A stretch of 64,000 nucleotides of DNA, taken from the NCBI RefSeq assembly GCF_001511835.1, contig NZ_LN997848.1:62001-126000 (forward strand), read 5' to 3'. Positions 1,025 to 16,401 of this stretch are shown here, one piece after another (position 1 is the stretch's first letter; every line of letters begins with the position of its first letter). A program made the position numbers and the translations under genes. The notes under the pieces are model-generated. The model ran no database searches. It saw only the letters and a program-made list of their open reading frames with translations, and was not told the DNA's origin. This DNA comes from Magnetospirillum sp. XM-1. Lineage in GTDB: Bacteria > Pseudomonadota > Alphaproteobacteria > Rhodospirillales > Magnetospirillaceae.

Positions 1025-1952
1025 CCCTGCTCTATCCCAGGCCTTGCGGGAGGCCTATGCCGCTGCACCGGCCGACACGGTGATCCTGCACACCCTGGAA
1101 ATCTGGCATCCAACCTTTACCGAACCGATCAGGGTGGTGCGGGACCATGCAGACCTCCTCGCTCGGTTAGAAATGGGGGCGCCGCGAGGAGGTGGCCAGA
1201 AGGTCACCTTCATCGCTTTGGCCTTCGATCTCGACCTGCCTCCGGTCGATACCGCGCCGGTGCCGGAAATCACCGTCACCCTGGACAATGTTGGCCAGGA
1301 AATCGTCGATGCCCTGGAGGCTGCTGCCATCAGCCAGGACAAGATCGACATCATTTACCGGCCCTATCTCTCGACCGATCTGGACGGGCCGCACATGGAC
1401 CCACCCATCACCCTGACCTTGTCTGAGGTGGAGGCCGACACGCTCAGGGTCACCGGCCGCGCCCGCATGCTGGATGTCGGCAACAAAGCCTTTCCCTCCA
1501 TCACCTATACCGCCAAGCGGTTCCTGGCTTGGCCAGATAGGAGACTTGCCATGCACTGGGCATCAGCCCTCATTGGCCTGCCGTGGTCCGTCCACGGCAG
1601 CGGACCAGACACGTTCAATTGCTGGGAATTCGTCCGCACCGTTCAACGGAACCAGTTTGGCAGGGAATTGCCCGAAATCGGCAACCCTGAAGACATCCTG
1701 GTGATGGGGCGGACCTTCCGTGACCACCCTGAGCGGCAACGCTGGGTCAAGGTCCCCGATCCATTGGAGGGTGACTGCGTCCTGCTGCGCCAATCGCGCC
1801 ACCCCATACATGTTGGTGTCTGGCTCGACGTGGATGCCGGCGGTGTCCTCCATTGCTGCCAGGATTCCGGGGTGGTGTTCCAGCGCCCCGATGCTCTCCG
1901 TCTCAATGGCTGGGCCATCGAAGGCCATTACCGGTTCATCGGTGACGCATGA
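1008..1952 (+). CDS. DUF1833 tail protein fused to NlpC/P60 peptidase by an apparent one-base frameshift
   Basis: Residues 1-178 match the DUF1833 phage family (LREAYAAAP… FPSITYTAKRF). Residues about 182-314 are an NlpC/P60-type cell wall peptidase with NCW (catalytic Cys) and HVGVW (catalytic His). Such phages normally carry these as two adjacent genes. Adding one C after 1523 would make the first part end RFPGLAR-stop (TAG at 1538-1540), just before an RBS (TAGGAG, 1538-1543) and an ATG at 1551 that opens the peptidase. So the single frame is probably a recent fusion, and the peptidase (1551-1952) may also be translated alone. Start at 1008 or 1017, overlapping the upstream gene; the end overlaps the next start (ATGA). 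Confidence 0.8.
   Translation: MTAMPDPALSQALREAYAAAPADTVILHTLEIWHPTFTEPIRVVRDHADLLARLEMGAPRGGGQKVTFIALAFDLDLPPVDTAPVPEITVTLDNVGQEIVDALEAAAISQDKIDIIYRPYLSTDLDGPHMDPPITLTLSEVEADTLRVTGRARMLDVGNKAFPSITYTAKRFLAWPDRRLAMHWASALIGLPWSVHGSGPDTFNCWEFVRTVQRNQFGRELPEIGNPEDILVMGRTFRDHPERQRWVKVPDPLEGDCVLLRQSRHPIHVGVWLDVDAGGVLHCCQDSGVVFQRPDALRLNGWAIEGHYRFIGDA
1538..1553 (+). promoter_or_regulatory. internal ribosome binding site and ATG of the NlpC/P60 domain
   Basis: TAGGAG lies 7 nt before ATG 1551 inside the fused reading frame. It is the expected start of a separate NlpC/P60 tail assembly peptidase, and the TAG within it is the out-of-frame relic stop of the DUF1833 gene. Confidence 0.6.
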
Positions 1953-4249
1953 CCGCGTCCGTCGTCGTCATCACCAATCCGTTTGAACCGGTGGCCAGCC
2001 GCAGCGTCCACGCCATTGATGCTGGGGTGACGGTTGGAGAATTGCTGCTGGATTGCGGGATTGATGCCGACCGCTGGGCAGACGGCCCGGAGATCCGGAT
2101 CGGCGGACAGGTGGTTGCTGCAGAAACATTCGCTGTCCGGGTGATTGGTGACGACGAGATCATCTCCATCATCCGCTGCCCCTTGGGGGGCGGCGGCGGC
2201 GGTGGTGGTGGCAAAAATCCGCTCAGCACCATCCTGACCATTGCCGTTCTGGTGGCCTCCATCTACCTGGGACCGGTGGCAGCCGTGGCCATGAGATTTG
2301 CCGAGGCCGGGACCGCCGCCGCCATGGCCACCGCCGCCATCGCCATGGTCGGTTCGGTACTGGTCAATACCGTGATCCCGGCTCCCAAGCCTTCGATGCC
2401 GTCCCTCAATTGGGGCGGCAGTGGCAGCACCCCGGCTCCCAGCCCGACCTACAGCTTGCAAGCCCAAGGCAACCAAGCCCGCCTGGGCCAACCGATCCCG
2501 GTGATTTATGGCCGCCATATGATCTATCCGGACCTGGCTGCTGAGCCTTATCAGGATTACGTCAACGGCGAGCAATTCCTCTACCAGCTTCATGTCATCG
2601 GCCAGGGCGAATACGCCATAGAGCAGGTCCGCATCGAGGACACGCCGATCTCATCATTCGAGGAGGTGCAGACAGAGATCGTGCCTCCGGGGCGCTCTGT
2701 CTCCCTGTTTCCCACTGAAGTGGTTTCCGCGCCTGAAGTGGCTGGCCAGGAACTGGTGGCGCCCAACCTGGTGCAAGCCGGTGATGACGGCTACATCGGC
2801 CCCTTTGCCGCCAACCCGGTGGACACCACGGCCAACGCGCTGGCCGTCGATATCATTTTTCCCAGAGGGCTTTACTACGCCAACGACAGCGGGACACTGA
2901 CCACGCGCACGGCCCAGTGGCAAATCGAGACCCGCCCCATCGACAGCGACGGCATCGCCATCGGCGGCTGGTCGGTGCTGGCATCGGAAACCTATAGCGC
3001 GGCCAGCAACACCGCCATCCGGATTTCATACCGCTATGCAGTCGCCGCTGGCCGTTACGAGGTCCGGTCCAGACGCCTAGACAATAAGGACACCGATGCC
3101 CGAGCGGGACATGAGGTGCGTTGGGGGGCTCTTCGAGCCATCCTGACTGACCGGCCGGATTTCGGTGCCGTGACATTGCTGGCCGTCAAGATGCGCGCGA
3201 CCGACAATCTCAGTCAGCGATCAAGCCGGCTCATCAACTGCATCGTTACCCGCAAACTGCCGATTTGGTCCGCCGCAACGGGTTGGTCCCAGCCGCAGCC
3301 TACGCGATCCATCGCCTGGGCCTTCACCGATGCCTGCAAAGCTGACTATGGGGCGAAGCTTTCGGATACCCGGATCGACCTCAAGGCTTTGGCTACGTTG
3401 GAGGCAGTCTGGGGGGACCGCGGCGACAGCTTTGATGCCGTCTTCGATTCAAACATGACGGTGTGGGAGGCGTTCTCACGTATCGCTCGTTGTGGCCGAG
3501 CCATCCCCATCCAGCAGGGCGGCATCATCCGCGTCATCCGCGATCAGCCCCAAACCATTCCGGTCGCCATGTTCGGGCCGCGCAACATCGTCAAGGGCTC
3601 ATTCAAGATCAAATACGTCATGCCCGGCGAGGACACCGCCGACGCGGTGACGGTAGAATATTTCTCATCGCGCACCTGGAAGCCCGATGAGGTTACCGCC
3701 AAGCTGGCCGACAGTAGCGGCGACAATCCCGCCAAGGTCAATCTGTTCGGCTGCACCGCCAAGGACCATGCCCAACGGGAAGGTCTCTACATCGCCGCCA
3801 ACAATCGCTATCGCCGCCGTCTGATCACCTTCCGCACCGAATTGGAGGGCATGATTCCCAGCTACGGCGATCTGGTCGCCATCACCCACGACATGCCCCG
3901 CTGGGGGCAAGGCGGCGAGGTGATCTGTTGCCAGGGCGATGTGTTGGTGCTGTCCGAGCCCTTGGTCTGGACTGAAGGAGCCACCCACTATCTCGCTCTT
4001 CGCCGCCGTGATGGTGGACTGGCGGGGCCGTTCCCGGTTGAGGCTGTGCCGGGAGACGCCACCATGGTCCGCGTCAGCGGCCCACTAACCGTTACCCCCT
4101 ATGTCGGCGGCTCGGAGGAGCGGACCTATTTCAGCTTCGGCCCCGGCCATGCCTGGGCCCAGACTGCTCGTATCCTCGCCATCCGCCCCCGCGCCGAGCA
4201 GGTGGAAATCTCCGCCGTCGCAGAGGATTCCCGCGTCCACATCAATTAG
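1949..4249 (+). CDS. phage tail tip / central hub protein (gpJ-like)
   Basis: A 766-residue protein that opens with a small ubiquitin-like domain (EIRIGGQVV), a run of nine glycines (residues about 81-89), two hydrophobic segments (about 92-150), and then the conserved hub signature GNQARLGQPIPVIYGRH seen in lambda J, TipJ and GTA host-specificity proteins. The remainder is beta-rich. It forms the tail tip, contacts the host receptor and guides DNA ejection. The start overlaps the peptidase stop by 4 nt, the usual order (NlpC/P60, then J). Length is typical of the shorter gpJ-like hubs. Confidence 0.88.
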   Translation: MTASVVVITNPFEPVASRSVHAIDAGVTVGELLLDCGIDADRWADGPEIRIGGQVVAAETFAVRVIGDDEIISIIRCPLGGGGGGGGGKNPLSTILTIAVLVASIYLGPVAAVAMRFAEAGTAAAMATAAIAMVGSVLVNTVIPAPKPSMPSLNWGGSGSTPAPSPTYSLQAQGNQARLGQPIPVIYGRHMIYPDLAAEPYQDYVNGEQFLYQLHVIGQGEYAIEQVRIEDTPISSFEEVQTEIVPPGRSVSLFPTEVVSAPEVAGQELVAPNLVQAGDDGYIGPFAANPVDTTANALAVDIIFPRGLYYANDSGTLTTRTAQWQIETRPIDSDGIAIGGWSVLASETYSAASNTAIRISYRYAVAAGRYEVRSRRLDNKDTDARAGHEVRWGALRAILTDRPDFGAVTLLAVKMRATDNLSQRSSRLINCIVTRKLPIWSAATGWSQPQPTRSIAWAFTDACKADYGAKLSDTRIDLKALATLEAVWGDRGDSFDAVFDSNMTVWEAFSRIARCGRAIPIQQGGIIRVIRDQPQTIPVAMFGPRNIVKGSFKIKYVMPGEDTADAVTVEYFSSRTWKPDEVTAKLADSSGDNPAKVNLFGCTAKDHAQREGLYIAANNRYRRRLITFRTELEGMIPSYGDLVAITHDMPRWGQGGEVICCQGDVLVLSEPLVWTEGATHYLALRRRDGGLAGPFPVEAVPGDATMVRVSGPLTVTPYVGGSEERTYFSFGPGHAWAQTARILAIRPRAEQVEISAVAEDSRVHIN

Positions 4250-4261
4250 GAACTGGCAGCC

Positions 4262-4891
4262 ATGCTGACCCGCGAAATCCTTCGCGCCTCCATGCCGGGG
4301 GCGTCCTCGGTCGATCTCGACCATTTTTTGGATCCTCTTGCCCAAGCCTGTACCGAGTGGGGGATCGAAACTCCTATCAGGCTGGCGGCATTCCTCGCTC
4401 AAATCGCCCATGAAAGCGATGACCTCGCTTGCCGGGTCGAGAACCTGAATTACTCCGCCGAGGCCCTGTTGCGGGTGTTCCCCCGCCACTTCGATGCCGA
4501 CCAGGCTGTCGTCTACGCCCATCAGCCCGAACGGATTGGATCTCGGGTTTACGGCAACCGCATGGGCAATGGCGATGAGGCGAGTGGCGACGGTTGGCGC
4601 TATCGGGGCCGAGGCCTGATCCAGTTGACCGGGCGAGCCAATTACACGGCAGCCTGCCTTGCCCTTGGTGCCGATCTGATCGGCCAGCCGGAACTGCTGG
4701 AACAGCCGGGTCTTGCCGCTCGGTCGGCTGGGTGGTTCTGGCGCCGGAACAACCTCAATGCCTTTGCCGATCGAGGCGACGTCATCTCCATCACGCGGCA
4801 CATCAATGGTGGTCTGATCGGCATCGAAGACCGCAAACACCGCTATGCCCAGGTCTGCGCGGCTTTGGGAATCACCCTGACGGAGGCTTAA
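4262..4891 (+). CDS. GH19-family endolysin (lysozyme/chitinase fold)
   Basis: 209 residues. The family signatures FLAQIAHESDDL (first catalytic Glu) and GDGWRYRGRGLIQLTGRANY are both present, followed by SAGWFWRRNNLNAFAD. GH19 endolysins cut the peptidoglycan glycan strand at lysis. No signal peptide is present, so release would need the holin encoded next to it. Starts 12 nt after the tail hub gene. Confidence 0.93.
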   Translation: MLTREILRASMPGASSVDLDHFLDPLAQACTEWGIETPIRLAAFLAQIAHESDDLACRVENLNYSAEALLRVFPRHFDADQAVVYAHQPERIGSRVYGNRMGNGDEASGDGWRYRGRGLIQLTGRANYTAACLALGADLIGQPELLEQPGLAARSAGWFWRRNNLNAFADRGDVISITRHINGGLIGIEDRKHRYAQVCAALGITLTEA

Positions 4892-4892
4892 C

Positions 4893-5492
4893 ATGGATCT
4901 TTTCGACCTCTTGGGCGATGCCGCTGCCATTGCCGCCAACCCCATTGCCGGCCTCGCCAAAGTGGCCCTCGACGTGGCTCCGGACATTGCCGGACTATTC
5001 GGCGATGATGCCGAGAAAGCGGTCAGCAAGTTGGCCGGCGCGGTCAGGTCCATCACCGGCACCGAAGATCCCGAAAAGGCGAGAGAGGTGCTGTCCGATC
5101 CCAACTTGGTGTACCAGTTGCGGAACCAAGCTCAATCGTTTGCCCATGACGAGCGCATGGCTCAGATCACGGGGGCGATCACGACGCTCACGGCAACGCT
5201 GGCGGATCGCCAGGATGCACGGTCGCGGGATACCGAGTTCATCAAGGCCGGCAGGAGCAACATCCGCTCCAATGTTCTGCTGATCACTGCCGGTCTGGGC
5301 ATCGTCGGCGGAATCGGCTTCATGGTGTTCGGACATGTGGACGGCAACACCGCTGTGGGCGGGTGCATCATTTCGGTGGTGACGCTGTTGGCCGGAAAGT
5401 TCGGAACGGCGTTCGATTTTGAATTCGGCGGATCTGCGGATTCGGAGCAGACCCGGAACCTGTTGGCGCAGGCACCGCCAATCGGCAAATAG
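4893..5492 (+). CDS. holin-like phage protein (GTA_holin_3TM type)
   Basis: 199 residues. An N-terminal amphipathic segment (DAAAIAANPIAGLAKVALDVAPDIAGLFG) precedes a charged helical middle and two membrane helices near the C-terminus (VLLITAGLGIVGGIGFMVFG and GGCIISVVTLLAGKFG). This layout and its place one base after the endolysin fit the three-TM holin family known from gene transfer agents and alphaproteobacterial phages. The family assignment is by pattern and context. It is the last gene of the lysis cassette, followed by a terminator. Confidence 0.7.
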   Translation: MDLFDLLGDAAAIAANPIAGLAKVALDVAPDIAGLFGDDAEKAVSKLAGAVRSITGTEDPEKAREVLSDPNLVYQLRNQAQSFAHDERMAQITGAITTLTATLADRQDARSRDTEFIKAGRSNIRSNVLLITAGLGIVGGIGFMVFGHVDGNTAVGGCIISVVTLLAGKFGTAFDFEFGGSADSEQTRNLLAQAPPIGK

Positions 5493-8386: not shown

Positions 8387-8623
8387 CTATTTTCTCATCG
8401 CTGAAGGCTCTTCACGCGCCCATTCGGCCATCCATCGCTTTCCATCCTTTGCCATGATCCAGGGATCCGAGTGTTCGCGGCGTTCGGGCAGGATATCCGC
8501 GTCGAACTTAAGCGCCCGGCGGACTGCGGATCGCCAGCGCCGGTTGGCGATCCGCTTGTCCCATTGTTCGCTTTCGGCTGTGGTGATGCCGAAGATCGGT
8601 GTTCGGCGCTTGGATCGAGCCAT
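8387..8623 (-). CDS. small basic protein next to Ro60
   Basis: 78 residues, strongly basic (MARSKRRTPIFGITTAESEQWDKRIANRRWRSAVRRAL). It begins 2 nt after the Ro60 stop and is surely cotranscribed. The KRR and RRWRSAVRR clusters suggest RNA binding, but no family is recognised. Its position as last gene of the operon makes it a candidate partner of Ro60 or of the Y RNAs. Confidence 0.6.
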   Translation of the reverse strand: MARSKRRTPIFGITTAESEQWDKRIANRRWRSAVRRALKFDADILPERREHSDPWIMAKDGKRWMAEWAREEPSAMRK

Positions 8624-8625
8624 CC

Positions 8626-10227
8626 TTACCTCCCGACAAACTCAGCCACCACCTGCGGTACGGCGGCGTCGAAACCGGCGCAGCCGAGCGAGAGCGGATC
8701 ACCGTCGGGCACCACTGAACCGGTATTGGCGGCGGTGGCCAGTACCACGGCCTTGGCCGCAGGATTGACCGTTTCACGATACTGTCGCAGCGCTTGCACA
8801 GGATGCTGCTTGCCGGCCCAGGTCTCGTTGTCGGTGAGCACGACGATGGCGTCAAATTCACGGCGGGCCCTCAATGCATGCTGGATCGGCAACGCGGTGT
8901 CGGTGCCGCCGCTCCATTGCTTGAACGTCCTTACCACGTCATCGAGCCGCTGGCGTGCCGACAGCGCCACCGTGTGGATCTCGGTATCGAAACCGACCAC
9001 CTCTACATGCCTTTCGCTGTGCACGAAGGTCATGGCCATGGCCGCCGCAGCTTCATACGCATGAAGCACAGCCGAGCCGATGCAGGGACTATTCATCGAG
9101 CCCGAGACGTCGACACCCACCAGCAGCCGCTTGCCCGTGGGCGCCACGGTCGCAAAGGCCCGGTAGAAGGCTTCATCAAGGGCATCAACCACCGCCGGCA
9201 CAGGGGTCCACTGAAGCTTGCCGCGCTCGCCGCGGCCCTGGGCGTAGGTCTTCAACGCCAACAGGATCTGCACCGGGTGGACTCGGGCCCGAGTCAGCGC
9301 TTCGCCATCCGACAGGCGGCGGACTACCCGGTCAGCGACATCCGAGCCGATCGACAGCAAGCCGACTTGGCTAAGCTTGCCGAGGTTGCGGATCAATGCC
9401 GTGGCCGGCATGGACTCTAGCAGTGCCTCCCATACCTCGGGTGCACTCAACCTCTCGGTCGGCACAGCTTCGCGCGGCAGCCGGTGGGCGCGGATCGCCG
9501 CGGCCACTGCAGCCGGACCATCAGCTTCACGAGCGGCGAACATGCCCTCCACCAGCGGAAAGGCGGTGCGTGCAGCCGCCACCGCGTCGGCCGAACCGGG
9601 GTGGGCGATCCAATCAAATAGCGCCTTCATCCGCACGTCATCGGTGAGCGGATGAGCCAGACGCAGCAGGTCGCGCAAGGACCAGCCGCCCCGGTTCATG
9701 TACTTCACCGCCTGCAGTGCGATGCGGTCGGCGTCCTGGCCGATGAACCAGCCGGCAACGGCTCGACGCAAGCCCCGGCCCCAGCCACGGAAGCCCTCGA
9801 CCATATCGGCAAAGGACAGCAAGTGGGTGCCGGTACGGGCCACCCGGGGAAGAGCGGCCAGTGCGGCACGCCGGGTGGCCTCGTCTGCCGCCGCTGTGGC
9901 CATGGCCAGCACGAACAGTGCCGGATCGTTCTTCGGCGCCCGGCCGGCCTCGCTGATTTCGATGGCGCGTGCGACGACCCGTCGGCCGTCGGCCGACAGG
10001 CAGCGAGCAACGGCATGGGCGTTATCAGCGGTGAGTTGACGCTCGCCGACATAGTAGGTGCCACCCTCGGAGCCCAGCACCAGGAAGCGGTCAAGCCGCG
10101 CCCAATCGTCAAGGGCATACCAATGGCCACCGGCGTTGTTGGGAACCTGCCCCGGCAGCGGCTCGCTCTGGGCGGCCGCGTTCTGGGGTACTGCATGACG
10201 AGAGCTGAAAAGCTTACGGTACGTCAT
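8626..10227 (-). CDS. rsr: Ro60/TROVE-domain RNA-binding protein (Rsr)
   Basis: 533 residues. The N-terminal and middle part is the TROVE ring of helical repeats (NNAGGHWYALDDWARLDRFLVLGSEGGTYYVGE, VKYMNRGGWSLRDLLRLAHP). The C-terminal von Willebrand A domain (from about 366) has an intact MIDAS: DVSGS at 373-377, T442 and D466. Ro60 proteins hold Y RNAs on their outer surface and bind the ends of damaged or misfolded RNA in the central hole. SD AAGGAGGT stands before ATG 10227. It follows the nine-copy Y RNA array and RtcB on the same strand, matching the known rsr-yrl-rtcB gene association. Confidence 0.93.
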   Translation of the reverse strand: MTYRKLFSSRHAVPQNAAAQSEPLPGQVPNNAGGHWYALDDWARLDRFLVLGSEGGTYYVGERQLTADNAHAVARCLSADGRRVVARAIEISEAGRAPKNDPALFVLAMATAAADEATRRAALAALPRVARTGTHLLSFADMVEGFRGWGRGLRRAVAGWFIGQDADRIALQAVKYMNRGGWSLRDLLRLAHPLTDDVRMKALFDWIAHPGSADAVAAARTAFPLVEGMFAAREADGPAAVAAAIRAHRLPREAVPTERLSAPEVWEALLESMPATALIRNLGKLSQVGLLSIGSDVADRVVRRLSDGEALTRARVHPVQILLALKTYAQGRGERGKLQWTPVPAVVDALDEAFYRAFATVAPTGKRLLVGVDVSGSMNSPCIGSAVLHAYEAAAAMAMTFVHSERHVEVVGFDTEIHTVALSARQRLDDVVRTFKQWSGGTDTALPIQHALRARREFDAIVVLTDNETWAGKQHPVQALRQYRETVNPAAKAVVLATAANTGSVVPDGDPLSLGCAGFDAAVPQVVAEFVGR

Positions 10228-10255: not shown

Positions 10256-10339
10256 CCACCGGGCATGCGACGGTCCTGGCGCCCGGGGCTGTCTCTCCGG
10301 GCTTCTGCAGCGTTAACCAGAACCCATCCGGCCCGATGG
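10256..10339 (-). ncRNA. Y RNA-like element I (closest to ro60)
   Basis: 5' strand CCATCGGGC (10339-10331) pairs with GCCCGGTGG (10264-10256), 9 bp. Then CGGA, a second stem GGTTCTGG/CCAGGACC (10324-10317 with 10279-10272), and the loop motif GGTTAACGC. The inner hairpin is GCCCGG/CCGGGC. Same plan as the other eight copies. Its end is 28 nt from the ro60 ATG. Confidence 0.75.
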
Positions 10340-10340
10340 A

Positions 10341-10423
10341 CGGGCTTACACGGTCTCGGAGCTGTGGAGGCTCGTGGCCTTTCCCGCTAACAAAGCGATC
10401 ACCGAAACCCTCCGGCCCGGTGG
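10341..10423 (-). ncRNA. Y RNA-like element H
   Basis: The second stem is a clean 8 bp: GGTTTCGG (10409-10402) with CCGAGACC (10359-10352). The terminal stem is reduced to CGGGC/GCCCG because its 3' end abuts element I. It keeps GGGCCGGA; the loop motif is GGTGATCGC, a variant of GGTTATCGC. Confidence 0.62.
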
Positions 10424-10442
10424 CCGGAATTCATCAAAAGGT

Positions 10443-10543
10443 CGCCGGGCGTGCGCTTGGCCTTGGTTGGCCACGGCTTTTGCCGTGGAGACCGGAGGAA
10501 CTCCCGGCCCAGGAGCGGGTAACCAAGATCCTCCGGCCCGGCG
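10443..10543 (-). ncRNA. Y RNA-like element G
   Basis: Terminal stem CGCCGGGC/GCCCGGCG (10543-10536 with 10450-10443). Second stem CTTGGTT/AACCAAG (10527-10521 with 10468-10462). Carries GGGCCGGA and GGTTACCCG. An inner perfect hairpin CACGGC-AAAA-GCCGTG marks the effector region. Confidence 0.7.
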
Positions 10544-10560
10544 GGGCAGAAACTGTTCAT

Positions 10561-10708
10561 GGAGGACGGACGTGTCATCGCCGACCGGCTCCCCTCACGG
10601 GGATTGAGCTACTCCAGCGCGGGCTGGAGGCGGGCCTTGAACCCGCAACACGCTGATTAAGGGTCAGCTGCTCTAACCGATAACCGTCCGGCTGTCGGCC
10701 CGTCCTCC
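10561..10708 (-). ncRNA. Y RNA-like element F with a circularly permuted tRNA-Lys(CTT)-like domain
   Basis: Terminal stem of 11 bp (10708-10698 with 10571-10561); second stem of 9 bp with one A-G mismatch (10692-10684 with 10588-10580). Inside, in order: D-stem 3' strand GAGC, anticodon arm GCTGA-CCCTTAA-TCAGC (10669-10653), T arm GCGGG-TTCAAGG-CCCGC, acceptor 3' strand CTCCAGC (10629-10623), 4-nt linker, acceptor 5' strand GCTGGAG (10618-10612), TA, D-stem 5' strand GCTC. The 7-bp acceptor and 4-bp D stem pair perfectly, so the tRNA is permuted and opened in the D loop. A CCCC-GTGA-GGGG tetraloop hairpin follows. Position 33 of the anticodon loop is C instead of U. Confidence 0.82.
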
Positions 10709-10722
10709 AAACTTTCAATGGC

Positions 10723-10802
10723 CTCTCGGGCGTGGACTGCGGTCCCGTCGGGCTTTCGCCTCAGATTTACAGTCTGGTAACTGGACCACTCCGGCCCGAG
10801 AG
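10723..10802 (-). ncRNA. Y RNA-like element E with a tRNA-Tyr-like anticodon hairpin
   Basis: Terminal stem CTCTCGGGC/GCCCGAGAG, 9 bp perfect (10802-10794 with 10731-10723). Second stem GTGGTCC/GGACCGC (10789-10783 with 10745-10739). The loop motif is AGTTACC. It holds CAGA-CTGTAAA-TCTG, identical in form to a tRNA-Tyr(GTA) anticodon arm, and a GGC-GAAA-GCC tetraloop hairpin. Confidence 0.75.
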
Positions 10803-10819
10803 CATTTTCACTCAACCGT

Positions 10820-10923
10820 CCACCGGACATGTTGGTGATCTCGGTGTTGACCACGGACAAGTCCGCGGCGACCGGCGCGTCTCCGGTCCAGGGAGCGATA
10901 ACCGAAATCTTTCGGCCCGGTGG
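10820..10923 (-). ncRNA. Y RNA-like element D
   Basis: Terminal stem CCACCGGGC/GTCCGGTGG, 9 bp with one G-U (10923-10915 with 10828-10820). Second stem GATTTCGG/CCGAGATC (10909-10902 with 10844-10837). Motifs GGGCCGAA and GGTTATCGC. Inner hairpins GACCGG/CCGGTC (7-nt loop) and CGGAC-TT-GTCCG. Confidence 0.72.
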
Positions 10924-10935
10924 CCGCAATTTCAA

Positions 10936-11090
10936 ACAGACGGGCATGGTGTCGCTAGTTGGGAAACCCCTTGCGAGGCGATGCCCTTGCGGACAGTGAG
11001 GCGTCCCCGGAGACCGGGCGCGGAGATTGCTCCCCGAATTGATGCCTCGAGTTGGCACTTGCGATAACCAACTAGCTTCGGCCCGTCTGC
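10936..11090 (-). ncRNA. Y RNA-like element C (longest)
   Basis: Terminal stem GCAGACGGGC/GCCCGTCTGT, 10 bp (11090-11081 with 10945-10936). Second stem GCTAGTTGG/CCAACTAGC, 9 bp perfect (11076-11068 with 10962-10954). Motifs GGGCCGAA and GGTTATCGC. Its 3' part (CCTC-GCAA-GGGG hairpin and GCGACACCATGCCCG) is shared with element A. 155 nt. Confidence 0.75.
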
Positions 11091-11133
11091 ACTCCTTCTC
11101 GATTGCTCAGCGGCCTTAAGTGCCATGAGGAAC

Positions 11134-11216
11134 CCACCGGGCGTAATGTGGTCTCGATCCCGGTTCGCAGGTTCCGGGTTTCAATGAGCGTTAATCGAAA
11201 CCGTCCGGCCCGGCGG
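11134..11216 (-). ncRNA. Y RNA-like element B (minimal form)
   Basis: Terminal stem CCGCCGGGC/GCCCGGTGG (11216-11208 with 11142-11134). Second stem GGTTTCGAT/ATCGAGACC, 9 bp (11202-11194 with 11158-11150). Motifs GGGCCGGA and GATTAACGC. Only a short inner hairpin CCCGG/CCGGG remains, so it may be close to a bare Ro60-binding stem. Confidence 0.72.
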
Positions 11217-11228
11217 CGGTGGCGTTGG

Positions 11229-11360
11229 GGAACGGGCATGGTGTCGCCAATCGGATAGCCCCTCGCGGGGCGGGAGTCTTTCCTGGCCTGGGCCAGGAAA
11301 AACGAGCGCGGCCGTTTCATGACCGCTTCTGAGATAACCGACTGACTTCCGGCCCGTTCC
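11229..11360 (-). ncRNA. Y RNA-like element A (first of the array)
   Basis: Terminal stem GGAACGGGC/GCCCGTTCC, 9 bp perfect (11360-11352 with 11237-11229). Second stem TCAGTCGG/CCGATTGG (11345-11338 with 11254-11247). Motifs GGGCCGGAA and GGTTATCTC. An inner hairpin GCGGTC-ATGAAAC-GGCCGC has a 7-nt loop with GAA at the anticodon place and T at position 33. It also has a long TTTCCTGG/CCAGGAAA hairpin and a CCCC-GCGA-GGGG tetraloop. The 5' end lies 24 nt after the palindromic operator at 11384. Confidence 0.77.

Positions 11361-11397: not shown

Positions 11398-11402
<5 letters not shown>
11384..11402. promoter_or_regulatory. palindromic operator ahead of the Y RNA array, copy 2
   Basis: GGTGACAAATTTGGTCACC overlaps the rtcB stop and lies 24 nt upstream of Y RNA element A on the minus strand. 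GATAAAG at about 11364-11370 could be part of the -10 region. This placement suggests the array and ro60 have their own regulated promoter. Confidence 0.72.
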
Positions 11403-12615
<1,213 letters not shown>

Positions 12616-12649: not shown

Positions 12650-12724
12650 TGGTTCCGGGGCCTGGATTTGAACCAGGATTGGCGAGACCAAAACCCGCTG
12701 TCCTACCTGTTAGACGACCCCGGA
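12650..12724 (-). tRNA. tRNA-Gln(TTG)
   Basis: Acceptor TCCGGGG/CCCCGGA with the U1-A72 pair usual for tRNA-Gln, D arm GTCT…GGAC, anticodon stem GCGGG/CTCGC around TTTTGGT, T arm CCTGG-TTCAAAT-CCAGG, discriminator A and encoded CCA (12652-12650). Lies 34 nt upstream of rtcB. Looks functional. Confidence 0.88.
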
Positions 12725-12739
12725 GCTGGGAGAAAACAG

Positions 12740-12815
12740 TGGTGCCGAGGGCTCGAGTCGAACGAGCATGGTCGCGTTTTCAGCGCGCTGCGTGGACCGC
12801 CATTGCTACCTCGGC
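12740..12815 (-). tRNA. tRNA-Phe(GAA)-like, weak D arm
   Basis: Acceptor GCCGAGG/CCTCGGC, anticodon loop CTGAAAA (GAA), T arm GCTCG-TTCGACT-CGAGC, discriminator A, CCA encoded. The D arm (GCAATGGCGGTCCACGC) pairs poorly and the outer anticodon pair is G-A, so it is more diverged than a housekeeping tRNA. Confidence 0.75.
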
Positions 12816-12823
12816 TGATGGAT

Positions 12824-12900
12824 TGGACGTGCGGGCCGGGCTCGCACCGGCTAGGGGCGGCTTTGCAGGCCGCTGCCTCGGCTTCTTTGGCTTCCGCACG
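12824..12900 (-). tRNA. tRNA-Cys(GCA)-like, directly abutting the HNH gene
   Basis: Acceptor CGTGCGG/CCGCACG, D stem GCC/GGC, anticodon arm GCGGC-CTGCAAA-GCCGC, T arm GCCGG-TGCGAGC-CCGGC, discriminator U73 (a tRNA-Cys identity base), CCA encoded. T-loop position 55 is G instead of U. Its 5' base follows the HNH gene stop with no gap. Confidence 0.78.
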
Positions 12901-13467
12901 TCACGCCGCAAAGGGCAGGAAATCCTGCCAGACGGCATGGATCTGGCGCTGGTCGCGGAAGTATTCAGCTCGAGCCAACTCCTCCACCGTCGGCCGCCAC
13001 GGGCGCCACAGCAGCGGCATCCGCGCCAACTCAGGCGTCCGGTCAGCTTTACGGCCGTTACAACCAGCGCACGCCGCCACCAGATTTTCCCAACGATGCT
13101 GCCCGCCCCGTGATCGCGGGATGACGTGGTCGTAGGTCAATCTGTTGACCGCAAAGGTCCTGCCGCAATAGGCACAGGCGCATTTGTCACGAAGGACCAG
13201 CACGTTGTGACGGGTCAACGGCGCCACCTTGGGTCGGGCCACGAAGCGCCGTACCCGGATGACTGCCGGCAACGAAACGCTCATGGATGGCGAGCGCACC
13301 CTGACATCATGTTCTGCGACGATGTCGACTTGGCCGCCGATAGCACTTCGGACTGCATCCTGCCAAGGCAGGATGGATAGAGGTAGGTATTGGAGGGGTT
13401 GGTAATCGGCGTTCAGCACCAGAGCCGGGAACGCCGCCAGCTGTCTTTCCGAAAGCGAGGGAACCAT
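12901..13467 (-). CDS. HNH endonuclease embedded in the tRNA cluster
   Basis: 188 residues. The HNH core reads CAYCGRTF…LTYDHVIPRSRGGQHRWENLVAACAGCNGRKADR: two CxxC zinc knuckles, the catalytic His in DHV, and Asn in ENL. This subfamily (N-terminal VLNADYQPL…) is widespread as free-standing HNH proteins. Whether it cuts DNA or RNA is unknown. Its stop touches tRNA-Cys and it starts 22 nt after tRNA-Lys, so it is part of the tRNA transcript. Confidence 0.88.
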   Translation of the reverse strand: MVPSLSERQLAAFPALVLNADYQPLQYLPLSILPWQDAVRSAIGGQVDIVAEHDVRVRSPSMSVSLPAVIRVRRFVARPKVAPLTRHNVLVLRDKCACAYCGRTFAVNRLTYDHVIPRSRGGQHRWENLVAACAGCNGRKADRTPELARMPLLWRPWRPTVEELARAEYFRDQRQIHAVWQDFLPFAA

Positions 13468-13489
13468 GGCGGCCTCCTGGCAAGGGTAG

Positions 13490-13564
13490 TGGTGAACCGA
13501 GTGGGGATCGAACCCACGACAGACGGCTTAAAAGGCCGCCGCTCTACCGCTGAGCTACCGGTCC
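13490..13564 (-). tRNA. tRNA-Lys(TTT)
   Basis: Acceptor GGACCGG/TCGGTTC, D arm GCTC-AGCGGTA-GAGC, anticodon arm GCGGC-CTTTTAA-GCCGT, T arm GTGGG-TTCGATC-CCCAC, discriminator A and encoded CCA (13492-13490). The most canonical tRNA of the cluster. Confidence 0.92.
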
Positions 13565-13678
13565 AAGCGCCCGTCCTGATGTGAGATTGGCTGCAGTTCG
13601 TGGATACCTATCGAACCAAATGCATCGCGCCGGAGCCCGAAGGAAATCCGTGAAATGCGGTTTACGGCATAACGTGTT

Positions 13679-14314
13679 CTACGCCGAACTCTGGGGCCAC
13701 TTCACGCCATCCGGAATAAGATCCACTTCGCCTCCTCGATCCTCCCAGGCGAATCTGACCCTATAGCGCTCACCTTTGAACAGAATGGTGCACCCATTTG
13801 TCTCGCACTGACGTCGCCGTTCGTATCCGTTTTCCAAGAACACTTCGTCGAACGACACGTCGAAGTGCTGAGCGACCGTGCGAATGTCTTCTACATAGGT
13901 CTGCTGCCAGCATTCCTCGAACACCTCGATATCAATCGGCCCCGAGGGGTGTGCATACATGTCCGTCAGACAGCTTGCTGAAATTTCTGACAAATACGGC
14001 TCATAGCCAGGAAAACCAGGCGTCGCGTATTCGCAGCAGCAGAATGGAGTATCGCAGGCAGGGCGAAATCCTCCTTCCCAGACAATGTTAATCAGGTCCA
14101 GGACGTTGTCTTTATAAAAATCCGAGACCCCGGGATATAGGTAGAACGTCACGGACACCTCACCCCGGATAGGGGCATTTACCCAGCCACTGTCAACGAG
14201 CTTGGGCAACCAGTCCGGCGTCGTCATTACCGTCTCGACACGCAAGATGTTGTGCGGCTGCCATGAGATCCCGTTCGTACTCTTGACGTAATTTGCATTC
14301 ACCGAATCGGACAT
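13679..14314 (-). CDS. unknown Cys-containing protein between tRNA genes
   Basis: 211 residues, no recognised family. Low GC for this genome and acidic; a cluster CDTPFCCCEYATPG (about residues 87-100) could bind metal. Its ATG (14314) is 3 nt from a truncated tRNA, so the tRNA relic forms its leader. There is no SD apart from GAGGGGG at 14321-14327. It belongs to the same minus-strand run as the tRNAs, HNH, RtcB and Ro60. Confidence 0.6.
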   Translation of the reverse strand: MSDSVNANYVKSTNGISWQPHNILRVETVMTTPDWLPKLVDSGWVNAPIRGEVSVTFYLYPGVSDFYKDNVLDLINIVWEGGFRPACDTPFCCCEYATPGFPGYEPYLSEISASCLTDMYAHPSGPIDIEVFEECWQQTYVEDIRTVAQHFDVSFDEVFLENGYERRRQCETNGCTILFKGERYRVRFAWEDRGGEVDLIPDGVKWPQSSA

Positions 14315-14317
14315 GAC

Positions 14318-14372
14318 GAACCCCCTCAGAGCTTCCGCAGAGCCGGAGGCTCTACCGCTGAGCTACACCTCA
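14318..14372 (-). pseudogene. truncated tRNA remnant (5' half up to the T arm)
   Basis: TGAGGTG, TA, a perfect D arm GCTC-AGCGGTA-GAGC, an anticodon-like hairpin TCCG-GCTCTG-CGGA with a 6-nt loop, then GGGGGTTCG, where similarity ends at the start of the neighbouring gene. No acceptor 3' strand follows. It may be a decayed tRNA or a recombination junction. Confidence 0.6.
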
Positions 14373-14397
14373 AGGAAATGTGCATGGATGGACCCCA

Positions 14398-14476
14398 GTG
14401 GGCGGCAGAGCCCGCGCGGAACTCCACCTTTCGCACCGCCAAGCGGTGCTTATCCTAAGGACGCCATGCCGCCCAC
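14398..14476 (-). ncRNA. candidate structured RNA between tRNA-Met and the tRNA remnant
   Basis: GTGGGCGGCA (14476-14467) pairs perfectly with TGCCGCCCAC (14407-14398), closing a 79-nt segment with an inner hairpin GCACCGC-TTG-GCGGTGC. It lacks tRNA T-loop and Y RNA motifs. It might be a spacer hairpin for processing or a new RNA. Confidence 0.4.
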
Positions 14477-14506
14477 CCGCCGGGGGCCGGCGGGATTGGA
14501 AATGGT

Positions 14507-14584
14507 TGGTAGCGGAGGCCGGACTCGAACCGGCGTTGTTCCGGGTATGAACCGGGTGCTGGAACCACTCCAGTCCACTCCGCA
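14507..14584 (-). tRNA. tRNA-Met(CAT)-like
   Basis: Acceptor GCGGAG/CTCCGC with a U-U mismatch at 1-72, anticodon loop TTCATAC in stem CCCGG/CCGGA, T arm GCCGG-TTCGAGT-CCGGC, discriminator A and CCA encoded. The D arm is unusual (CTGGA-GTGGT-TCCAG). Could be read as Met or as Ile2 after modification. Confidence 0.72.
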
Positions 14585-15615: not shown

Positions 15616-16401
15616 ATGATCCCCGATAACATCCGGCACCAGGTCAACGGACTGCTCGACCAGGTCGAGGCCGATCATGACGTGCGAATTTTGTTTGCAG
15701 TCGAGTCCGGGAGCCGTGCCTGGGGGTTTCCCTCGCCCGACAGCGATTACGACATTCGCTTCGTGTACGTCAGGCCACTAACCTGGTACGTGCGGTTGTC
15801 CGTTGGCCGGGACGTTATCGAGCGCCCGATTGTCGATAATCTCGATGTTGGCGGATGGGACCTTCGCAAAGCATTGAGCCTGCTGGTCAGAGCCAACCCG
15901 GCGCTGATCGAGTGGCTCTCATCACCCATTGTTTATCGGGAGCGCCCGGAGACGGCGGCTATCCGAGCGCTGGCCGAATTGAGCCCTCACCGCCACTCCG
16001 CCCGCTACCACTATCGAGCCTTAGCCTGGAGCAACTACACTCGCTACATCGCCAAGCGGGAGATGGTGAAGCTCAAGAAGTACATGTACTGCATCAGGCC
16101 TGCGGCTGCCTTGAGGTGGTTGCGCACCAGACCGGATCGCGTCCCAATGGATTTTCCCTCCCTGTTGGCGGGGATCAAAATGGAGGCAGATCTCCAGCAG
16201 GCCATTGATTCGCTGTTGGCGCTGAAAGTCAGTTCTCTGGAAATGGGGGAGGGACCGCATATCCCGCGTATCGACGATTTCATCGAGACCGAGATGGATT
16301 TGGCGGTGCGACCAGACGGACCACCGTCCATTGATCCATCCTTTCAAAGCAAGGCGAACGAATTATTTCAGTCAATTGTCCTGAGGCAATGTGACAATTG
16401 A
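15616..16401 (+). CDS. RlaP-type predicted nucleotidyltransferase
   Basis: 261 residues. The polymerase-beta-like core is seen as VESGSRAWGFPSPDSDYDIRFVYV (GS motif and DxD), followed by the helical part typical of the RNA-ligase-associated nucleotidyltransferase family (PF10127; AYHYRALAWSNYTRYIAKREMVKLKKYMYCIRPAAALRWL). Family members are found beside RNA ligases and are thought to act in RNA end repair; the reaction is unproved. SD GGGAGG stands before ATG 15616. The palindrome upstream ties it to the Y RNA array. Confidence 0.88.
   Translation: MIPDNIRHQVNGLLDQVEADHDVRILFAVESGSRAWGFPSPDSDYDIRFVYVRPLTWYVRLSVGRDVIERPIVDNLDVGGWDLRKALSLLVRANPALIEWLSSPIVYRERPETAAIRALAELSPHRHSARYHYRALAWSNYTRYIAKREMVKLKKYMYCIRPAAALRWLRTRPDRVPMDFPSLLAGIKMEADLQQAIDSLLALKVSSLEMGEGPHIPRIDDFIETEMDLAVRPDGPPSIDPSFQSKANELFQSIVLRQCDN

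Follow-up and report, generated by a model that had tools for sequence, protein, structure and literature searches.

The 64-kb window, by which we mean the whole stretch of DNA analysed here, carries nine head-to-tail Y RNA-like elements, E1 to E9, which fill the minus-strand interval separating rtcB from ro60 (Table 1). The initial annotation had placed nine minus-strand segments at positions 10256–11360, and all nine were found there. Along the minus strand the gene order is tRNA-Met, the frame at 13679–14314, tRNA-Lys(UUU), an HNH protein, tRNA-Phe, tRNA-Gln, rtcB, the nine elements and ro60. The last element adjoins ro60, as is characteristic of bacterial Y RNAs, with a gap of 28 nt between E9 and the ro60 start. 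A DNA-level search of the 4.99-Mb genome for a second copy of the array matched just the array itself. The four extra tRNA genes, which span 12650–14584, keep their usual anticodons while being 66–75% identical to the nearest own same-amino-acid tRNA found, and could be spare tRNAs. A partial tRNA-like stretch (GGTGTAGCTCAGCGGTAGAGC ... GGGTTCG) is visible at 14320–14380 on the minus strand, just ahead of the frame at 13679–14314.

Table 1. Features of the array and its neighbourhood, in window coordinates.
Feature	Position	Strand	Description
ro60	8626..10227	-	TROVE and Ro60 vWA domain, 533 aa; PF25045 6.7e-49, PF05731 6.2e-40
E9	10256..10339	-	short head; R1 58.4 bits, in training
E8	10341..10423	-	5-bp terminal stem; R1 51.2 bits, in training
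E7	10441..10545	-	E4 class; R1 72.9 bits, in training
E6	10560..10709	-	150 nt, YrlA-like; R1 21.1 bits, held out; RF02553 27.6 bits (gathering 69)
E6 permuted tRNA-Lys(CUU)	10603..10678	-	ARAGORN tRNA-Lys(ctt) on two pieces in tRNA order
E5	10723..10802	-	80 nt, anticodon-arm head; R1 37.3 bits, held out
E5 anticodon-arm mimic	10762..10776	-	CAGA-CTGTAAA-TCTG; 15 nt identical to own tRNA-Tyr(GUA) arm
E4	10820..10923	-	two-hairpin head; R1 91.9 bits, in training
E3	10937..11089	-	153 nt; R1 34.7 bits, held out; RF01656 30.1 bits
E2	11134..11216	-	83 nt, short head; R1 64.0 bits, in training
E1	11229..11360	-	132 nt; R1 31.5 bits, held out; RF01656 31.6 bits
rtcB	11398..12615	-	tRNA-splicing ligase family, 405 aa; PF01139 1.8e-134
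extra tRNA-Gln(UUG)	12650..12724	-	ARAGORN; 70–75% to other own tRNA-Gln found
extra degenerate tRNA-Phe(GAA)	12740..12815	-	ARAGORN; Rfam 42.4 bits; 68% to other own tRNA-Phe found
extra tRNA-Lys(UUU)	13490..13564	-	ARAGORN; 69% to other own tRNA-Lys(UUU) found
extra tRNA-Met(CAU)	14507..14584	-	ARAGORN; 66% to nearest own tRNA-Met found
RlaP	15616..16401	+	RNA-repair nucleotidyltransferase family; PF10127 7.6e-78

The array cassette adjoins prophage lysis genes. Positions 1949–5492 of the window encode a phage tail J protein, an endolysin and a small phage-family protein, and relatives of all three lie by the ro60 cassette of a second genus (81%, 68% and 84% identical, respectively), which is also accompanied by RlaP and a protein with poly(A)/CCA-polymerase domains. 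Directly after ro60, a 78-aa protein (8387–8623, minus strand) has relatives with 68–69% identity behind the ro60 of the second genus and behind a broken copy. This broken ro60 belongs to the same-genus genome G007 (L029 3409–4659), where adjacent N- and C-terminal pieces sit beside a relative of the small phage-family gene. PADLOC matched the HNH protein weakly to PtuB-like (Septu) HNH proteins, and the PLD protein to DrmC-like ones, which we set aside as shared folds only.

All nine elements share a terminal stem ending CGGGC/GYCCG, mostly CGRA opposite 6–8 nt, a second stem of 7–9 pairs and mostly UUAYC. The initial annotation had described a single plan closed by GGTTAYC throughout; the shared plan stands, but stem 2 of E6 contains a single mismatch, CGRA is replaced by CGAC in that element, the terminal stem of E8 is only 5 bp, and the closing motif varies in E2, E5, E8 and E9. 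The UUAUC-type motif expected of Y RNAs after stem 2 is present as TTA[TC]C in E1 and E3–E7, one base off the stem in E5, while E2 and E9 carry TTAAC and E8 carries TGATC. A stem-loop-stem descriptor matched eight times in the array region, missing E5 because its TTACC does not directly adjoin stem 2. Among 300 dinucleotide shuffles, 288 gave no match and 12 gave one, and on this basis we rejected chance repeats as the origin of the array. Elsewhere in the window the descriptor had four scattered matches on the minus strand and four on the plus strand.

As the initial annotation had proposed, we built a covariance model and searched genomes with it. The model, R1, was trained on the 12 well-aligned rows (A2) of 22 elements from four genomes (the window, L003, L030 and L004), five of them from the window; the full 22-row alignment (A1) was not used because several 3' arms were misaligned. 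With filters off, R1 recovered 9/9 window elements, including the four that had been held out (E1, E3, E5 and E6). The best match on the plus (mirror) strand reached 17.4 bits, compared with 21.1 bits for E6, the lowest-scoring held-out element.

Both stems covary strongly, and the earlier claim of covariation was borne out by compensatory changes above slid or shuffled controls in sets of 12, 87 and 123 rows. In the 12-row training alignment 95.9% of cells pair, compared with 30–51% when the partner is slid, and 9 pairs are changed on both sides versus 3.5 in shuffles. Similarly, 93.4% of cells pair across 87 matches (34–47% slid) and 94.1% across 123 viral-locus matches outside training (32–46% slid). 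In this last set, pairs with any two-sided change numbered 17 against 15.2 in shuffles, a value reached by 32 of 500 shuffles and a weak measure near its ceiling; other covariation measures were far above shuffles. Alignments built by a model lean toward the structure of that model, and sliding the partner cuts pairing from 93–96% to 30–51%. Thus, the elements have the covariation-supported docking stem with an asymmetric internal loop that marks bacterial Y RNAs. Four open frames run over the array; we rejected a protein-coding reading because none matches a Pfam family at E 0.1 and the stems covary. We also consider it very improbable that the array is a silent set of dead RNA copies in a degenerating prophage remnant. 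No sigma-70-like promoter match was found inside the array, terminator-like matches there occur at the shuffled rate, and a covariance model search of the G007 locus found no Y element beside the broken ro60 pieces, all that this genome has of the gene; against this, the rtcB and ro60 frames are open and 9/9 docking stems show compensatory changes.

Ro60-like matches occur in 10/317 genomes of the order at E 0.001 (some of them weak) and in 9/385 genomes sampled from the class at E 1e-20, each count including the own genome. We ran a retrained model, R2, at E 0.5 and 0.1 on Ro60 loci. The four alignments made with the models contain 445 matches (415 distinct sequences), every one of them on the same strand as ro60. 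Upstream of the gene, 394 fall within 1.5 kb; another 45 fall within 1.5 kb downstream or overlap it, and 6 are farther away. These counts take 445 of 453 matches, since alignment A7 holds 150 of 158, and are independent of the inflated E-values that R2 gives to its own training rows.

When 172 other Ro60 loci were searched, 39 had no elements and 133 had 1–10, with at least five in 24 loci and at least nine in three. Thinning to 157 non-redundant loci left 124 with elements, 24 with at least five and 3 with at least nine (same-contig loci were dropped, and L041, a near copy of L040, lies outside the 172). The initial annotation had given one or two Y RNAs for known bacterial operons; in this survey arrays of 1–5 are usual and arrays of 6–10 occur. 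The view that nine lies outside everything else did not survive this survey, as three viral contigs have at least as many elements: L046 with 10, L179 with 9, and L195 with 10 listed and 9 aligned. Thus, an array of nine is extreme, not unique. The ten listed Y elements lie ahead of ro60 in both L046 (3720–4885) and L195 (922–2912). Downstream arrays are seen in L025/L039, L040, L160 and L163, and L202 has elements on both sides of ro60. In Rhodococcus phage Trina (L120 2146–2354), an annotated pseudo 'tRNA-OTHER' overlaps a Y element match at 2281–2415. Among the phage records examined, four place ro60 inside or close to a tRNA cluster. RtcB lies near 9/173 Ro60 loci, counted over short flanks, and we therefore rejected RtcB linkage as a general rule.

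Several heads are shared between loci. By blastn, B1 and C1, elements from two sister species in a different genus, are 79–82% identical to E4 over its length and 75–76% identical to E7; part of D1, from a further genus, matches the same head class. Between the two sister species, three of four elements are 95–96% identical and the ro60 DNA is 94% identical. Heads seem to have been exchanged between loci, because B2 and C2 differ in their heads (66%) on a kept outer stem and 3' flank, and because the L030 version of this differing head is similar to D4, from a further genome (82% across 85 nt). An alternative is that having many Y RNAs simply increases the amount available to block the Ro60 cavity and stabilise the protein, with heads drifting neutrally after duplication. 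The docking module is indeed the conserved part, and sequence sharing of the kind expected from duplication is seen in E1/E3 and in E2/E4/E8 (the E1/E3 paralogues are 80% identical over 41 nt close to their 3' ends). We judge this account unlikely, however: neutral drift sits poorly with an E4/E7 head class common to another genus and partly to a further one, and with the retention of tRNA arms far above shuffles in the survey described below.

Two of the nine heads mimic host tRNAs. The E5 head contains 15 nt identical to the host tRNA-Tyr anticodon arm, of which 4 bp form in E5. When reordered, the E6 head forms a full cloverleaf with acceptor (7 bp), D (4 bp), anticodon (5 bp) and T (5 bp) stems that ARAGORN calls tRNA-Lys(ctt), a result obtained in 0/2000 shuffles. 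The permutation closes the acceptor stem with a CCGC loop and opens the ring in the D loop. The anticodon arm of E6 equals that of the own tRNA-Lys(CUU) but for C instead of U at position 33. The array lacks a linear tRNA gene: ARAGORN makes no call in it, and the RF00005 match at 10625–10689 scores 22.6 bits against a cut-off of 29. With their permuted order and no open acceptor end, E6-type heads should be unable to act as ordinary tRNAs. In our tests no tRNA arm was matched in the other seven heads (E1–E4 and E7–E9). C33, present in E6 and in D3, an element of a relative, was considered as a sign of nuclease resistance and dropped, substituted-33 loops not being enriched (3 versus 4.1 shuffled).

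Anticodon-like hairpins recur in Y elements elsewhere. In a first survey of 116 distinct elements, 16 hairpins had a loop identical to an own tRNA loop, compared with a mean of 1.0 in 200 shuffles. The rate of such hairpins was 1.34 per kb inside elements and 0.16 outside, and the reverse strand of the elements held 5. Permuting the loop letters gave a mean of 1.4, with 7/1000 permutations reaching 16. When triplets were reassigned within the same loop frames the mean was 8.9 (125/1000 reaching 16), and random triplets in those frames gave 7.4 (72/1000). Because reassigned and random triplets reach 16 at these rates, the data support the form of the anticodon loop, not the exact triplet, as the carrier of the signal.

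We then scored a prediction fixed in advance, a 7-nt YUNNNR loop directly after GTTA, on held-out elements. Thinning by k-mer overlap reduced 127 rows to 94 and 318 to 278 (new and non-similar); 12/94 and 36/278 were without the anchor or a 20-nt insert, leaving 242 testable held-out elements. An anticodon-type hairpin follows GTTA in 41/242, compared with a shuffled mean of 2.4 and maximum of 8, and 12 of the 242 carry exact own-tRNA loops (mean 0.2, maximum 2). Other hairpin sizes and other 7-nt loops also exceed shuffles, by just 1.2–1.8-fold. A small number of these loops are spurious and come from the UUAUC motif or from a T loop. A34 is unusual in bacterial tRNA and appears in 11/60 loops, five of which resemble the UUAU motif itself.

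The hairpins are also placed as in tRNA. Among 146 T-arm-bearing elements of the first and held-out sets, 27 have an anticodon-type hairpin upstream of the T arm, and the gap between the two is 3–6 nt in 25/27 (exactly 5 in 19), like a tRNA variable loop; shuffles gave 0.6, with a maximum of 4. When 183 inserts were doubled, ARAGORN made 53 tRNA calls across the junction and 2 not across it, compared with 0 in 20 shuffle rounds. We used these as yes/no calls only: with the junction lying on or close to the anticodon side, the anticodon identities are unreliable. E6, whose D loop holds an extra hairpin, is not called in this way. By eye, D3 (L028 378–484) and B3 (L027 8592–8715) show the ordinary, unpermuted succession of D, anticodon and T-like hairpins, the docking stem taking the place of the acceptor stem. 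An apparent Tyr-to-Phe anticodon change between B3 and C3 of the sister species was discounted, as one of only 5 differences in 126 nt falls in the loop and may be due to chance.

We give about an even chance to a reading in which the array specifies nine Y RNAs that bind Ro60 and belong to a tRNA-repair cassette carried by a prophage, with heads that present tRNA surfaces to tRNA-acting enzymes. A repair cassette is suggested by the nearby RtcB, RlaP and four extra tRNA genes; repair need not be the general role of such arrays, because RtcB is near so few Ro60 loci. On this reading the nine RNAs would be transcribed, processed and bound by Ro60, and would act as decoys or tethers. Most likely, one rtcB-Y-ro60 transcript would be cut into nine Y RNAs. 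Judging from the family, Ro60 would dock on the shared stem (terminal stem, asymmetric loop, second stem and mostly UUAYC). The heads comprise a whole permuted tRNA-Lys in E6, the anticodon arm of tRNA-Tyr in E5, the two-hairpin class of E4 and E7, and others. Most likely they would offer tRNA surfaces, among them anticodon arms, to enzymes that act on tRNA. They may be decoys or sensors for anticodon nucleases; alternatively, they may guide Ro60 to damaged tRNA together with a partner nuclease or ligase. The differing heads, two of which copy tRNA anticodon arms, suggest a phage-borne kit against cut or missing tRNAs. More tentatively, Y RNA arrays, many of them phage-borne, might be libraries of tRNA mimics docked on Ro60. 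Such libraries would display differing anticodon arms (Lys, Tyr, Asn, Ile, Thr, Ser, Pro, Gln and others), in many cases within a complete circularly permuted tRNA, and would take up, sense or steer anticodon nucleases as well as the repair of what these enzymes cleave, with heads exchanged as the nuclease threat changes.

The main rival to this decoy or sensor reading is a tether with several partners, in which heads recruit several nucleases or RNA-binding proteins and the anticodon arms are role-less leftovers of tRNA-derived modules. The earlier suggestion that one Ro60 could be tethered to many effectors fits nine different heads, as far as sequence can tell, though it was made without noticing the tRNA mimicry of some of them. 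Passages of PMC7790460 and PMC4726728 describe PNPase tethering by Y RNA, our tests detected no tRNA likeness in seven of the nine heads, and the E4/E7/B1/C1 head is common to two genera. Leftovers would be expected to decay, however, and the 7-nt YUNNNR loop is kept on differing stems at many loci, as is the spacing of exactly 5 nt to the T arm in 19/27. We therefore regard this alternative as possible but doubtful. Y RNAs with an anticodon arm in tRNA register and many different loops point, testably, to anticodon-directed enzymes as partners. This bears on why bacteria and phages keep Ro60 with tRNA-like Y RNAs, and a nine-member array with RtcB, RlaP and extra tRNAs in one cassette is a compact natural test set.

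Several known systems resemble the array. The earlier likening to animal Y RNAs can be kept in part: the elements are ro60-adjacent, covarying and share a Ro60-type docking module, while all Rfam matches (RF01656 for E1 and E3, RF02553 for E6) fall below gathering. The nematode sbRNAs (RF01656), which are related to animal Y RNAs, share the GGGCCGRA-like and GGUUAUC docking features; E1 and E3 score under the gathering cut-off of 38 and differ in their bacterial setting and their heads. E6 is closest to YrlA (RF02553; Salmonella YrlA, PDB 6CU1), which likewise lies beside ro60 and rtcB and joins a docking stem to a permuted tRNA-like domain. A passage of PMC11472068 describes a bacterial Y RNA that superposes on tRNA with circular permutation, and one of PMC8394870 gives the tRNA-like domain of YrlA as D, T and acceptor arms. 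Among the nine, only E6 has such a permuted domain with all three arms. In the Rfam YrlA consensus the T arm comes after the docking stems with no intervening hairpin, whereas E6, like a number of other Y RNAs from viruses and bacteria, additionally carries an anticodon arm that is in tRNA register. Titles and abstract openings of the open literature, a coverage outside which the main bacterial Y RNA papers fall, mention neither anticodon arms in bacterial Y RNAs nor large Y RNA arrays; within this coverage, an anticodon arm in tRNA register on a Y RNA appears to be new.

The Salmonella rsr-yrlBA-rtcBA operon, which passages of PMC7790460 link to tRNA cleavage, also brings Ro60, Y RNAs and RtcB together. 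It has two named Y RNAs (yrlB and yrlA), whereas nine Y RNAs, extra tRNAs, RlaP and prophage neighbours are found here. In the same passages, YrlA was not cleaved by the induced nuclease in Salmonella, and the authors raise the idea that its tRNA-like domain might competitively inhibit an anticodon nuclease; an anticodon arm on the head would make that idea more direct. A different role is described in passages of PMC7790460 and PMC4726728 for D. radiodurans, in which a Y RNA tethers PNPase to Ro60. Lastly, phage tRNA clusters, proposed in a passage of PMC10264068 to resist anticodon nucleases, are likewise phage-borne sets of tRNA-related genes, and several phage ro60 genes lie in or near them. 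Unlike the tRNAs of these clusters, Y RNA heads of the E6 kind are permuted, with the acceptor end closed.
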